A stretch of 64,000 bases of DNA, taken from assembly GCF_018771565.1 (NCBI RefSeq), contig NZ_CP076326.1, forward strand, positions 2,797,785 to 2,861,784. Direction: 5' to 3'. Every line of letters begins with the position of its first letter. The stretch's first letter is position 1. The notes beneath the pieces are model-generated. The model did no database searches. It was not told where the DNA came from and worked only from the letters and a program-made list of their open reading frames with translations. Origin of the DNA: Thermoflexus hugenholtzii. GTDB lineage: Bacteria > Chloroflexota > Anaerolineae > Thermoflexales > Thermoflexaceae. Below are positions 2,885 through 38,554 of this stretch, piece after piece. A program made the position numbers and the translations under genes.

Positions 2885-3328
2885 TCACACGTCGAACACC
2901 AGCTCCACCACGTAGAGGCCGTCCTCCTGCCGAATGGCCACGTTGTGATACGTGACCGCCTTAATATATTTTCGCACGGACTCCGGGTGCCCTCCATAGG
3001 CGGCGGCGCGGAGCCGGCCGATGGACTCCGGATCCTCGGGATCCGGAAGGTGGAGCTCCAGGATCTCGAAGCGCTTGAAGGCCAGCCCCTCGCGCTCCGT
3101 GAGGTAGACCAGCTCGTTCAGCCAGGCCACCAGCAGGCCTTCGGGGCTGGCGGCTTCGACCAGGGCCTCCCGCCGCTCTGCCTCGGGCACGGTTTCCAGG
3201 TCCGTGAGCAGGCTATACATCCCCAGGGCGGCGTGGGCGAACAGCTCCGGCAGCGTGCGCCCGTAGGCCCGGATGGCCCAGTCCGCCGTGTGGGGGATCT
3301 CCTCAAAAGGCACCGCCAGCTCCGGCAT
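2885..3328 (-). CDS. Archease, RtcB activating protein
   Basis: 147-residue archease, the small protein that speeds guanylation of RtcB and lets it turn over. The N-terminus has the family signature (EEIPHTADWAIRAYG, then LPELFAHAALGM) and the C-terminal half has the conserved KAVTYHN strand and an acidic end (ELVFDV). The length matches the family. It stands 59 bp upstream of rtcB and 49 bp downstream of selD on the same strand, so the three are probably one transcript. Proximity of archease to rtcB is widespread in bacteria and archaea, which supports both calls. Confidence 0.93.
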   Translation of the reverse strand: MPELAVPFEEIPHTADWAIRAYGRTLPELFAHAALGMYSLLTDLETVPEAERREALVEAASPEGLLVAWLNELVYLTEREGLAFKRFEILELHLPDPEDPESIGRLRAAAYGGHPESVRKYIKAVTYHNVAIRQEDGLYVVELVFDV

Positions 3329-33820: not shown

Positions 33821-33892
33821 GGCTCCACATCCCGAAGGCTCTCCCAATGGAAGGTGCGGACCTTCTGAGATCTCCGGCGCGTGAGGTCGGAC

Positions 33893-34162
33893 ATGCCCTG
33901 CGTTAGCGTGCGCGAACTCAAGGAACAGCTCAGCCGGATCTTGCGGGATGTGCGGGAGGGAGGGGAGGAGTATCTGGTCACATACCGTGGCCGCGTGGTG
34001 GCGCGCATCTCGCCCGTTGTGCCACCGGAGCGGCGGGTGGGGATGAAAAAGGTGCGGAAGGTGCTACGCGACCTGGATCGGCTGGCCGCGGAGATCGGCA
34101 AAAAGTGGCCAACGGGCGTGTCCGCGGTCGAGGCGGTTCGGGGAGAGCGAAGGGATTTCTGA
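33893..34162 (+). CDS. Phd/YefM-type antitoxin without an adjacent toxin
   Basis: 89 residues from ATG 33893. The N-terminal domain VSVRELKEQLSRILRDVREGGEEYLVTYRGRVVARISPV (shown in part) is the Phd/YefM DNA-binding and dimerisation fold; the C-terminus is a charged tail that would wrap a toxin. Normally a VapC/PIN or Doc/YoeB toxin gene follows within a few bases, but here a terminator-like hairpin and a convergent operon follow instead. It is therefore an orphan, or regulates a toxin elsewhere. Confidence 0.8.
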   Translation: MPCVSVRELKEQLSRILRDVREGGEEYLVTYRGRVVARISPVVPPERRVGMKKVRKVLRDLDRLAAEIGKKWPTGVSAVEAVRGERRDF

Positions 34163-34304: not shown

Positions 34305-35462
34305 TTAATAGAGGGGCACGTTGGGGTCAACTTCCCGCGACCAGGCGTTGATGCCCCCCCGCAGGTTGCGGACCCGCAGGCCGGCCGCCTGCATGATCCG
34401 GGCCGCCTGGGCGCTGCGCGCCCCCGTCTTGCAGTAGACCACGTATTCCCGGGTCGGGTCCAGCCGGTTCAGGTGCGCCGGCAGCTCGCGAAGCGGGATG
34501 AGGATGGCCCCCTCCAGGCGGCAGATCTCCCACTCGTGGGGCTCCCGCACGTCCAGCAGCACGATCCCCCGGCCGTCCCGCTCCAGCATGGCCTTGAGCT
34601 CCTGCGGGGTGATGTCGAACTCCGTGCGCACCTCATGCTCATGGATGGGCACGCCGCAGAAGGCCTCGTAGTCGATCAGCTCCCGGATGGTGGGGTTCTC
34701 CCCGCAGACGGGGCAGGCCGGGTTCTTGCGCAGCTTGAGCTCCCGGAAGCGCATGCTCAGGGCATCGTAAAGCAGCAACCGGCCGATCAGCGGCTCGCCC
34801 TGGCCGATGATCAGCTTGATGGCTTCGGTGGCCTGGATGGCTCCGATCACCCCGGGCAGCACGCCGAAGACCCCGCCCTCGGCGCAGGAGGGCACCAGGC
34901 CGGGCGGCGGGGGCTCCGGGTAAAGGCAGCGATAGCAGGGCCCCACCCGGGCGTCGAAGACGGTGGCCTGCCCCTCGAACCGGAAGATGCTGCCGTAGAC
35001 CAGGGGCTTCCCCAGGAACACGCAGGCGTCGTTGACCAGGTAGCGGGTGGGGAAGTTGTCCGTGCCGTCGATGATGATGTCGTAGTCTTTGAGGATCTCC
35101 AGGGCGTTGGCGCTGGTCAGCACCGTCTCGTGGGTCTCCACCGTGATGTCCGGGTTGAGGTCCAGCAGACGCGCCTTCGCCGAGGCCAGCTTGGGCTTGC
35201 CCACCCAGGAGGTGCCGTGCAGGATCTGGCGCTGCAGGTTGCTCTCGTCGACCACGTCGAAATCCACCAGACCGATTCGCCCCACCCCGGCGGCGGCCAG
35301 GTAGAGGGCGGCGGGGGAGCCCAGCCCGCCCGCCCCGATGATGAGGACGCTGGCGGCCTTCAGTTTCTTCTGGCCGGTCAGGCCCACCTCCGGCATCAGG
35401 AGATGCCGGCTGTAGCGGCGGATCTCCTCGTTCGTCAGGATGACCTCGTTCACGTTCTGCAT
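34305..35462 (-). CDS. MoeB/ThiF-type adenylyltransferase with C-terminal rhodanese domain
   Basis: 385 residues. The E1-like domain (1-270) has the ATP loop GAGGLGSPAALYLAAAGVG, DFDVVDESNLQRQIL, the DGTDNFPTRYLVND segment, and zinc cysteines in CYRCLYPEP and CPVCGE. The rhodanese domain (about 285-385) has the persulfide Cys in CKTGARSAQAARIM. Such MoeZ/MoeBR proteins adenylate the C-terminal Gly-Gly of small sulfur carriers and convert it to a thiocarboxylate. Last gene of the cysteine operon, so the expected partner is the CysO/MoaD-like protein at 36,402-36,692. Confidence 0.93.
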   Translation of the reverse strand: MQNVNEVILTNEEIRRYSRHLLMPEVGLTGQKKLKAASVLIIGAGGLGSPAALYLAAAGVGRIGLVDFDVVDESNLQRQILHGTSWVGKPKLASAKARLLDLNPDITVETHETVLTSANALEILKDYDIIIDGTDNFPTRYLVNDACVFLGKPLVYGSIFRFEGQATVFDARVGPCYRCLYPEPPPPGLVPSCAEGGVFGVLPGVIGAIQATEAIKLIIGQGEPLIGRLLLYDALSMRFRELKLRKNPACPVCGENPTIRELIDYEAFCGVPIHEHEVRTEFDITPQELKAMLERDGRGIVLLDVREPHEWEICRLEGAILIPLRELPAHLNRLDPTREYVVYCKTGARSAQAARIMQAAGLRVRNLRGGINAWSREVDPNVPLY

Positions 35463-36401: not shown

Positions 36402-36692
36402 TCAGGACCCGGGCGACCTTCCGCCGGCGATGGAGGGCACGATGCTGAGGGTCTGCCCATCCGGGATCGGGGTCTCCTCCCCCTGCAGATAGCGGACGTC
36501 CTCATCGCCCAGGTAAAGATTCACGAAGGAGCGCAGGCGCCCCTCTTCGTTGAACAGGTGCCGCTTGAGCTCCGGAAACTGGTCCGTCAGCGCCCGCAGG
36601 GCTTCCCCCACCGTGCGGGCCTCCACGGTCACCACTTTCTCCCCGCGGGTGTAGACGCGCAGCGGGGTTGGGATCAGGATCTGCACCGCCAT
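36402..36692 (-). CDS. MoaD/ThiS/CysO-like sulfur carrier with C-terminal extension
   Basis: 96-residue ubiquitin-fold protein from ATG 36692 (GGGAGG eight bases upstream; a GTG at 36701 is the alternative). Body: TPLRVYTRGEKVVTVEART, EALRALTDQFPELKRHLFNEEG and FVNLYLGDEDVRYLQGEETP, matching CysO of actinobacteria. It ends SIVPSIAGG followed by five more residues, RSPGS. A carrier must end in Gly-Gly to be adenylated, so the tail must be removed first; the adjacent JAMM protease is the obvious candidate. After activation by MoeB-rhodanese it would carry sulfur as a thiocarboxylate to the CysM-like enzyme. Confidence 0.88.
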   Translation of the reverse strand: MAVQILIPTPLRVYTRGEKVVTVEARTVGEALRALTDQFPELKRHLFNEEGRLRSFVNLYLGDEDVRYLQGEETPIPDGQTLSIVPSIAGGRSPGS

Positions 36693-36767
36693 CGGTTTCA
36701 CCTCCCGACGAAGGATGGAGGATCAGGTCCACCGCTTGCGGCTCCGGCCGCTGCGGCAGGTTTCCGC

Positions 36768-37199
36768 TCAGCCCGTGACCTCCAGGGGTCGCTCGACGAA
36801 GGCGGAGCGATCCTCCTGGAGCTCCCAGACTCGCCAGTCGACGGCCCGGCCGTCCTCCACCGAGACGATCAGGTAGGCATACCAGGGCCAGGCGTGCTCT
36901 CGATCGAAGGCGGAGGGCCGGGCCGGGTGATCCGGGTGGGAATGGAAGAACCCGATGATCTCCAGCCCCGCCGCCGCGGCGGCCCGCTCCGCCGCCCGCA
37001 CCTCCTCCGGCGGGATCAGGAAGCGATGGGTCTGCTCCGCCGGGTTCTCCCAGCGGTTGTCGACCAGCCGCAGGTCCTCCACGACCTTGATCCCGTCGAC
37101 CTCCCGGCCCAGGAGGATCCCGCAAGCTTCCGCCGGATAGCCCGCTTCGACATGGGCCCGAATCCGGTCCCGCTGTGAGACGGACAGCCGCAACGTCAT
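36768..37199 (-). CDS. JAMM/MPN+ metalloprotease (Mec-like)
   Basis: 143 residues with the complete JAMM zinc motif: Glu in PAEACGILLGREVDG, then FFHSHPDHPARPSAFD (HxH, Ser and Asp). In Mycobacterium the homologue Mec cleaves cysteine from the CysO-cysteine adduct; in pseudomonads QbsD-type enzymes trim the tail of the carrier QbsE. Here both jobs are conceivable, since the adjacent carrier has residues beyond its Gly-Gly. Start ATG overlaps the stop of the cysteine synthase gene, so production is coupled. Confidence 0.92.
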   Translation of the reverse strand: MTLRLSVSQRDRIRAHVEAGYPAEACGILLGREVDGIKVVEDLRLVDNRWENPAEQTHRFLIPPEEVRAAERAAAAAGLEIIGFFHSHPDHPARPSAFDREHAWPWYAYLIVSVEDGRAVDWRVWELQEDRSAFVERPLEVTG

Positions 37200-38152
37200 C
37201 GATGACCTCCCGGAGGATCGGCCTCGAACCAGAAGGGCTCGCTGAGATACTTGTATCCGGCGTCCGGGAACAGGGTCACCACCACCCCCTCCCGCAGGCG
37301 GGCGGCGACCTTGAGGGCGGCCGCCATCGCCGCCCCGGCGGAGATGCCCACGAACAGGCCCTCCTCCCGGGCCAGCCGCCGCGCCATCGCGTAGGCCTCC
37401 TCGGTGGAGACCGTCAGGAGCTCATCCAGGAGCTCCGGGTCGTAAATGCCCGGACGGATCGCGGTTTCCATGTGTTTGAGCCCCTCCAGGCCGTGGAAGG
37501 GCCCGTCGGGTTGCACGCCGATCAGGCGGATCTCCGGGTTCTGTTCTTTCAGGTAGCGGCCCACCCCCATCATCGTCCCGCTGGTCCCCAGGCCGGCGAC
37601 GAAGTGGGTGATCCGCCCCTCCGTCTGAGCCCAGATCTCCGGCCCCGTGGTGCGGTAGTGGGCCTTCCAGTTGGCCGGGTTGTTGTATTGATCGGCGTAG
37701 AAATACCGCTCGGGGTCGGCCTCGTAGCGACGGCGGGCCTCCAGGATCGCCCCATCGGTCCCCTCCAGGGGATCCGTGAGGATGAGCTCGGCGCCGTAGG
37801 CCCGCAGGATGCGCAGCCGCTCGGGGCTGGCGTTGGCCGGGATGCAAAGGGTGACCGGGTAACCCCGGGCGGCCCCCAGCATCGCGTAGGCGATCCCCAT
37901 GTTGCCGGAGGTGGCGTCCAGGATGACCTTGCCCGGCCGCAGCCGGCCCTCCCGCTCCGCCGTCAGGATGATCTCCCGCGCCGGGCGATCCTTCACGGAT
38001 CCCCCCGGGTTATACCATTCCGCCTTGGCGTAGATCTCCACCGGCGCGAGCGGCGCCGTAATGCGCCGGAACCGGATCAGCGGCGTGTGGCCAATGAGCT
38101 CGAACAGATCTTTCGCTTCCACCACCCGGGCTCGGGCGATCGTGGGCACCAT
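37196..38152 (-). CDS. cysM: Cysteine synthase, CysM/O-phosphoserine sulfhydrylase-like
   Basis: 318-residue PLP enzyme of fold type II. PLP lysine lies in NPGGSVKDRPAREI; the substrate loop is DATSGNMGIAYAML; the phosphate cup is GLGTSGTMMGVGRYL; and the C-terminus ends PDAGYKYLSEPFW. ATG 38152 follows a run of Gs and gives the normal length; an upstream in-frame ATG would add 54 unconserved residues that overlap the leader hairpins. The operon order cysM-mec-cysO matches the actinobacterial pathway in which thiocarboxylated CysO gives its sulfur to an O-phosphoserine-derived aminoacrylate. First gene after a structured leader. Confidence 0.92.
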   Translation of the reverse strand: MVPTIARARVVEAKDLFELIGHTPLIRFRRITAPLAPVEIYAKAEWYNPGGSVKDRPAREIILTAEREGRLRPGKVILDATSGNMGIAYAMLGAARGYPVTLCIPANASPERLRILRAYGAELILTDPLEGTDGAILEARRRYEADPERYFYADQYNNPANWKAHYRTTGPEIWAQTEGRITHFVAGLGTSGTMMGVGRYLKEQNPEIRLIGVQPDGPFHGLEGLKHMETAIRPGIYDPELLDELLTVSTEEAYAMARRLAREEGLFVGISAGAAMAAALKVAARLREGVVVTLFPDAGYKYLSEPFWFEADPPGGHR

Positions 38153-38289
38153 CGACCCCCCCTTGATCCTGTGGCAAATAAAAAGGACCAACACGATTCG
38201 GCGGGCCGGGAACGGGCCAGCGACCTCGACACCCTCAGGGCGCGGGGGCGTTGGCCACCCACCGATCGGTTGGTCCGCGATCAGGCGGG

Positions 38290-38344
38290 AAAAGGGCTCT
38301 CGCGGAGCCCTCATCCCGGGCGGGTGGCGTTAACGCCCCCGCCC
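38290..38344 (-). promoter_or_regulatory. Structured leader with intrinsic terminator upstream of cysM
   Basis: On the minus strand, a stem GGGCGGG/CCCGCCC plus GGCG/CGCC capped by TTAA (38344-38318) is followed by a terminator hairpin AGGGCTC-CGCGA-GAGCCCT and TTTT (about 38311-38290), 140 bases before the cysM ATG. Upstream, GCATG/CGTGC near 38,375 makes another small hairpin. The layout is that of a transcription attenuator or riboswitch, but I recognise no known class: T-box and SAM-I consensus sequences are absent. Confidence 0.6.
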
Positions 38345-38414
38345 AGGACAGATGCAATGCACGGGCTTCATGCCGGTTCGCATTTTGGGTCCACCGGATC
38401 AGCGTTTCTTTTAC

Positions 38415-38443
38415 ATCTTACGGAGCGCCCTGGTTGTTGTCAA
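38415..38443 (-). promoter_or_regulatory. Promoter of the cysteine/sulfur-carrier operon
   Basis: Perfect TTGACA (38443-38438), 17-base spacer, TAAGAT (38420-38415). The expected start near 38,408 gives a leader of about 255 nt before cysM. The 110 bp between this promoter and the plus-strand protease gene at 38,555 contain no other clear signal. Confidence 0.75.
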
Positions 38444-38554
38444 ATTTGGGGTGTTGTCGAGGCCTGTCACCGTTGACGGGATAGGCGGGAGAAGCCATCC
38501 TAAACCGGCGAGGCCGTTCGGGCGATTCGAAGAGCTGTCGCGAGGAAGCGACAT

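Follow-up and report, generated by a model that had tools for sequence, protein, structure and literature searches.

A candidate family of cysteine-codon transcription attenuators upstream of sulfur-assimilation genes in Anaerolineae

The cysM operon of Thermoflexus hugenholtzii and its leader

The window analysed here, a 64,000-nt stretch of contig NZ_CP076326.1 of Thermoflexus hugenholtzii, contains an operon headed by a gene for a cysM-like cysteine synthase, whose product scores 387.1 bits against TIGR01138, just below the cut-off of 394.2 (Table 1). The operon further encodes a Mec-like metalloprotease of the JAMM family, a CysO-like sulfur carrier and thioredoxin/DUF4395 proteins, and it ends with a MoeZ-like adenylyltransferase/sulfurtransferase; we take this gene set to be one for sulfur-carrier-dependent cysteine synthesis. 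An ORF of 93 aa on the opposite strand (33881–34162, plus), next to the 3' terminus of the ThiF-rhodanese gene, by eye resembles antitoxins of the Phd/YefM type.

All elements of the cysM leader are on the minus strand. A promoter scan found one sigma-70-type promoter, against 0.1 expected in shuffles, and the promoter can be aligned in the other Thermoflexus leaders, where the -10 box is TATGAT in five (one of the eight same-genus extracts begins 3' of the -35 box). Transcription is predicted to start at about position 38408, which gives a leader of ~256 nt up to the cysM ATG at 38152. The fold of this leader, at -135.8 kcal/mol, is considerably more stable than those of dinucleotide shuffles (-110.6 +/- 5.65, z -4.46, 0/200). 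It includes a very strong GC stem, CCUGGGCGGGGGCG-UUAA-CGCCACCCGCCCGGG, and a hairpin (C) of variable sequence, the stem of which is kept in Thermoflexus by compensatory changes (AGGGCUC:GAGCCCU versus AAGGCCG:CGGCCUU). About 24 nt 5' of the cysM start there is an intrinsic terminator, which a simple terminator scan overlooked owing to its long loop. The eight Thermoflexus leaders all have this terminator, at a varying distance from the start codon. The leader is not a repeated element of the genome: in a repeat check its DNA matched only itself, through its own palindrome, and later searches added one diverged functional copy. An earlier note, made from the DNA letters, had described a good promoter, an untranslated leader of about 250 nt, several hairpins including the GC stem, and an intrinsic terminator ahead of the ATG; this layout is confirmed, except that the leader is most likely not untranslated, because a conserved ORF of 17 codons lies inside it.

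Table 1. Predicted features of the cysM leader and genes of the operon (window coordinates)
Feature	Position	Strand	Evidence or remark
Sigma-70-type promoter of the cysM operon, TTGACA(38443)-17-TAAGAT(38415)	38415..38443	-	score 10/12
uORF/leader peptide MRTGMKPVHCICPGRGR*, 17 codons; ATG at 38383, TAA 38332-38330	38330..38383	-	Thermoflexus alignment
Regulatory codons TGC-ATC-TGT (Cys-Ile-Cys)	38348..38356	-	Cys codons kept in 67/67 members
Segment A, GCGGGGGCGUU, switching strand in the uORF 3' end	38332..38342	-	pairs with B or D'
Protector hairpin A:B, CCUGGGCGGGGGCGUU/AACGCCACCCGCCCGGG, uORF stop codon in the loop	38315..38347	-	folds
Hairpin C, AGGGCUC...GAGCCCU, then UUUU	38292..38312	-	Thermoflexus alignment and folds
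Segment D, GGACCAACCGAUCGGUGGGUGGCC, terminator 5' arm	38253..38276	-	folds
Segment D', AACGCCCCCGC, antiterminator partner of A	38242..38252	-	RNAalifold and covariation
Terminator 3' arm GUUGGUCC and U tract UUUUUAUUU, long stem	38176..38192	-	alignment and folds
cysM-like cysteine synthase, first operon gene	37196..38152	-	TIGR01138 cysM, E 5.7e-116; TIGR01136 cysKM above cut-off
JAMM-family (Prok-JAB) metalloprotease, Mec-like	36768..37199	-	PF14464, E 1.9e-27
ThiS/MoaD-family sulfur carrier, CysO-like	36402..36701	-	PF02597, E 5e-10; SAMP1, 58 bits vs cut-off 60
MoeZ-like ThiF-rhodanese adenylyltransferase/sulfurtransferase, operon end	34305..35462	-	PF00899 and PF00581

Related leaders in the class Anaerolineae

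Relatives outside the genus were searched for with a degenerate pattern of the uORF end and then with a covariance model. The pattern matched 17 of the 396 genomes of the class, 13 of these matches being judged true and four being coding false positives. With the covariance model (R1), for which 12 sequences were used, matches at E<=0.05 were obtained in 64 of the 396 genomes. Checked true members come from ~44 genomes and at least 16 families of the class, as families are labelled in the genome set; many of them are from metagenome-assembled genomes.

Several genomes contain more than one copy. In the genome of the window, a second copy (contig C1, 60352–60445, E 4.8e-12) precedes a gene for a thiosulfate-sulfurtransferase-like rhodanese, and a third one, before a gene for a YeeE/YedE-type Sulf_transp transporter, is found in two Thermoflexus genomes (L149:3055-3147 and L151:2992-3084); this transporter was not found in the window's genome. 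Before sulfite reductase genes the element can be duplicated, the tandem copies being ~220–350 nt apart (L148:301-408 and 584-688; L153:301-406 and 600-699; L160:2998-3103 and 3218-3321; L165:2649-2750 and 2996-3101). In genome G030 (contig C7), which belongs to a different family, a sulfurtransferase leader almost identical to that of Thermoflexus stands before an apparently decayed rhodanese frame (L129:3016-3109) and looks like a transfer or a bin contamination.

An exact scan of named genomes added loci from Chloroflexota and two Armatimonadota/uncultured loci. In the latter two (L074:5367-5386 and L083:5466-5485), a uORF ending in CICPGRG is located before a gene which, by sequence appearance, is sulfate adenylyltransferase-like. 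A pattern search with three mismatches in 400 genomes of the phylum returned nothing convincing outside the class, where a further model, R2, gave one weak match (G583, E 0.009). Pattern matches that lie in coding genes or lack the element were discarded (L053, L054, L056, L059, L077, L078, L082, L086-L088, L091-L093, L136, L157 and L159).

The window has no Rfam match at the gathering score, and the leader at E<=10 has only chance matches; among 20 other member loci, the only hits at the gathering score were two unrelated tRNAs in flanking DNA. This bears out the view of the earlier note that the leader fits no known class. Two of the checks proposed there, a comparison with Rfam and a search for covariation in homologous leaders, returned no known family and covariation (see below), respectively, so that neither of the outcomes named in the note as refuting was observed. 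If the interpretation given below is right, these leaders are an RNA family absent from Rfam.

A short ORF with two invariant cysteine codons

The uORF is in frame in 8/8 Thermoflexus leaders. All of them share the start codon, an ATG, and the C-terminal residues C-I-C-P-G-R-G-R before TAA or TAG, while the first eight codons vary freely without frameshifts. Given the conserved frame, the leader of the window is in all likelihood translated; GGUGGA, ~10 nt 5' of the ATG, is a plausible Shine-Dalgarno sequence. Across the family, both Cys codons are invariant (67/67 members): Cys1 is TGC in 52 members and TGT in 15, and Cys2 (38348–38350 in the window) is UGU without exception, very GC-rich genomes included. 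Twelve different codons occur between the two, with variation at each of the three positions. Also invariant (67/67) is the Arg after C-x-C, in the arrangement C-x-C-x-x-R. In 97% of the 67 members, an ATG in the open frame lies at most 20 codons upstream; the corresponding values in the two remaining frames are 9% and 22%. The stop codon is exactly eight codons past Cys1 in 34 members, and the length of the N-terminal part varies. Upstream of the element, 63% of dereplicated members have a promoter scoring at least 10/12, in contrast to 1.2% of shuffles. Only 21 of 52 dereplicated uORFs have an SD-like motif ahead of the in-frame ATG. In six of the 32 members with a good promoter, the ATG follows the -10 box by 4–10 nt, which is compatible with a leaderless start; in the window this distance is 31 nt.

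Cysteine genes, an unpaired UGC 5' of a terminator and the UGC and GGUGG motifs are also what one might see in a tRNA-Cys T-box having TGC as its specifier codon. However, no T-box model matched the window or the members at the gathering score, or the leader at E<=10, and what is conserved is not one specifier but two Cys codons, the ORF containing them having its end within the switching helix. A T-box was therefore rejected, and we assign it a negligible probability.

Mutually exclusive helices

Segment A (GCGGGGGC) keeps a fixed distance of 14 nt from the start of the Cys1 codon in all members and has two potential partners, B, which lies 3' of it, and the more distant D'. When a MAFFT alignment of 12 members, a set collected through the ORF pattern, the similarity of the leaders or their gene context and not by the covariance model, was submitted to RNAalifold, the program returned exactly one helix, namely, A:D', although this helix had not been supplied beforehand. 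In the alignment of 68 rows, 97.0% of A:D' cells are paired, a value biased upward because the rows were retrieved with a model containing A:D', and sliding the partner lowers it to 50–63%. The helix displays 23 double changes versus 3.8 in shuffles, its covariation score being reached by 0/500, and it is built from pairs as different as GCGAGGGC:GCCCUCGC, GCGGAGGCAG:CUGCCUCCGC and GCGGGGAUGGG:CCCAUCCCCGC. The region from A to D' varies in both length and sequence. Inside A:D', B pairs with D, which lies 5' of D', in sequence-variable ways; in the window, GGGUGGC of D can pair with GCCACCC of B within the antiterminator. The extended antiterminator of the window has a dG of -74.3, compared to -50.3 +/- 3.4 with a shuffled middle (z -7.0), and in 52 dereplicated members the mean z was -2.87 (Stouffer z -20.7), 75% of them being individually better than with the shuffled middle. 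The A:B hairpin is above chance overall but weaker than the antiterminator, with a Stouffer z of -9.4 in the 52 dereplicated members and individual p<0.05 in a third of them.

A terminator-like hairpin followed by a U run is found downstream in 58 of 67 members and can be arranged in three ways. In 16 members (e.g. L140, L150, L058) the stem includes D' or the nucleotides next to it, and in 15 (Thermoflexus, L118, L122) it includes D, upstream of D'; in these 31 the antiterminator and the terminator cannot coexist. In the remaining 27, the terminator is a separate local hairpin further downstream, which could plausibly be coupled to D'. Computationally, A:B and the covarying A:D' helix are mutually exclusive.

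No terminator was detected in nine of the 67 members, and some genes may begin close behind the element. Both observations would suit translational or Rho-dependent control, in which translating the uORF would hide or uncover a Rho site or the site where ribosomes bind for the main gene, similarly to the mycobacterial poly-cysteine short ORFs, which reportedly act by unmasking the main ribosome-binding site. We regard such control as improbable for the family, given the hairpin and U run in most members, the inclusion of D or D' in so many stems and, in Thermoflexus, the conservation of the terminator at varying distances from the start codon.

The length of the leader, its hairpins and the terminator ahead of the ATG could equally be those of a metabolite-binding riboswitch (for cysteine, O-phosphoserine, O-acetylserine or sulfide) which uses the terminator as its platform and in which the ORF is incidental. 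No Rfam class contradicts this, and nucleotides around TGCATCTGTCC are strongly conserved. Nevertheless, beyond the uORF end, A and D' there is no conserved aptamer core, as the interval between A and D' shows, and the invariant positions are two in-frame Cys codons separated by a free codon and preceded nearly always by an ATG in the same frame. Since conservation centres on an ORF with Cys codons, the riboswitch was rejected and is, in our estimate, very unlikely. The part of the earlier note that called the leader attenuator-like and possibly cysteine-sensing is supported by the absence of Rfam matches and the covariation, whereas its suggestion of a riboswitch or an aptamer for O-phosphoserine or sulfur is not: the strongest constraint is on two Cys codons which, within a short ORF, keep a constant distance to the switching helix, as ribosome-mediated attenuation would lead one to expect.

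Genes downstream of the element

Pfam analysis of 30 downstream proteins identified 13 with the cysteine-synthase fold, 8 with NIR_SIR domains (sulfite/nitrite reductase), one of these fused to a PAPS reductase domain, and 4 rhodaneses. The others comprise one each of a Cys/Met-metabolism enzyme, a Sulf_transp protein, a PF03601 transporter-like protein, a HemC-HemD protein, which would fit via the siroheme route, and a thioredoxin with cysK further down. A role in sulfur or cysteine metabolism fits 30/30 of the downstream genes scanned, and cysS is absent among them. Because gene content was not used in finding the members, the association with sulfur genes constitutes independent support. 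If our interpretation is right, it offers an annotation rule at the level of the regulon: where a uORF with C-x-UGU is combined with an A/D' helix, a sulfur gene follows.

Proposed model of attenuation

The conserved ORF and its Cys codons, the exclusive covarying helices, the terminators, the promoters and the association with sulfur genes are established computationally; we infer that the uORF is translated, that ribosomes stall on it, that cysteine is the signal and that the response has the direction described here. Very probably, this leader works as a ribosome-mediated transcription attenuator, gauges the supply of Cys-tRNA(Cys) and belongs to a family spread over the genes for sulfur assimilation in this class of Chloroflexota. 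During transcription of the leader by RNA polymerase, a ribosome would be translating the uORF. In a shortage of charged tRNA-Cys, the ribosome would stall at the UGC/UGU codons with its front edge at or just before A, leaving A single-stranded and covering the lower strand of the A:B hairpin. Free A could then pair with D', as could B with D; the resulting antiterminator would use up or displace the terminator arm, and cysM would be transcribed. With plentiful cysteine, the ribosome would pass the Cys codons to the stop and cover A, leaving D and D' free for the intrinsic terminator; upon release of the ribosome, A:B could re-form and hold A off D'.

Folding with ribosome-masked positions agrees with this scheme. 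For transcripts ending at D', A:D' formed in 64/67 members when no ribosome was placed on the RNA, in 67/67 when one occupied Cys1 and in 0/67 when it stood at the stop codon. Thus, in these folds a ribosome past the Cys codons removes the antiterminator and one waiting there allows it, implying that low Cys-tRNA means readthrough. A ribosome at Cys2 with a 13-nt front footprint already covers part of A (mean A:D' pairing 0.30), so in this model only a tighter footprint would make both Cys codons useful. Helices at the mRNA entry tolerate tighter spacing, as in frameshift signals, and with such spacing (5 nt from Cys2 to A) a stall at Cys2 would also allow A:D'. If the model is right, the strict 14-nt spacing renders the geometric relation between a stalled ribosome and the forming helix amenable to testing. 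At equilibrium, the complete Thermoflexus leader adopted the terminator fold at every ribosome position masked. Since equilibrium always favours the terminator, the model requires that the choice is made while transcription proceeds, as it is in classical attenuators.

An alternative is that the nascent C-x-C-x-x-R peptide, sensing a thiol, sulfide or metal in the exit tunnel, arrests the ribosome. The invariance of C-x-C and the following Arg would be expected from such a sensor. However, the A:D' helix accounts for the Arg and Gly codons (CGR, GGN/RGN), the residues before and between the cysteines vary widely, the N-terminal length varies, and, with A exposed, no more than a few residues separate the cysteines from the decoding centre, so the peptide would be barely inside the tunnel. 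A peptide sensor of this kind is improbable as the explanation; hardly more probable is a combination in which the peptide is part of the sensor (e.g. for a thiol, sulfide or metal), an arrest-peptide switch joined to an RNA attenuator and shared by the whole sulfur regulon.

Returning to attenuation by Cys-tRNA(Cys) supply, the occurrence of the same switch before sulfur genes in at least 16 families suggests that these bacteria probably sense cysteine shortage through a stalled ribosome. If this is right, many lineages of Anaerolineae control sulfur assimilation via many independent copies of one ribosome-read attenuator.

Comparison with known systems

An ORF in conserved frame, codons for the end product, exclusive covarying helices and a terminator, present together in the window and, as to the terminator, in 58/67 members, are among the features by which attenuators are recognized. 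Like the trp, his and leu attenuators, the Chloroflexota leaders combine a leader peptide containing codons of the product, mutually exclusive antiterminator and intrinsic terminator, an upstream promoter and a biosynthetic gene downstream. Unlike them, they have only two such codons, in the form C-x-C and at a fixed 14 nt from the switching strand, and a single family, sometimes in tandem, serves the whole sulfur regulon instead of one operon. A literature search, in which coverage of subscription papers was poor, returned no report of such an attenuator in Chloroflexota. Attenuation by cysteine codons is already known, but none of the described cases has the C-x-UGU/A/D' architecture and none was found in Chloroflexota; we therefore consider the family a variant of a known mechanism, of which the C-x-UGU/A/D' form and the regulon-wide use appear to be undescribed.

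The uORFC-8-2 motif, located before cysS in Rhodobacterales, shares with the present family conserved Cys codons, a terminator with a U run and predicted ribosome-mediated attenuation (PMC8632094). It differs in having tandem Cys codons and in its restriction to cysS and to Rhodobacterales, whereas the Chloroflexota leaders have C-x-C, different stems and no cysS among the downstream genes scanned. Leader peptides with runs of Cys codons precede actinobacterial cys operons as well, in that case without conserved terminator hairpins (candidates of Seliverstov et al. 2005, PMC1262725). Mycobacteria possess poly-cysteine leaderless short ORFs (Canestrari et al. 2020, as cited in PMC9094748 and PMC13236596). 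They resemble the Chloroflexota elements in being Cys-rich short ORFs at several cysteine-metabolism loci, with several independent copies per genome, and, if our reading is correct, the family would form a ‘ribulon’ comparable to the mycobacterial one but differently built. They differ from the Chloroflexota members, which have C-x-C throughout, no Cys run and, in addition, an intrinsic terminator and antiterminator. As to leaderless starts, the promoter spacing would be compatible with one in only 6 of the 32 Chloroflexota members with a good promoter, the copy in the window not being among them.
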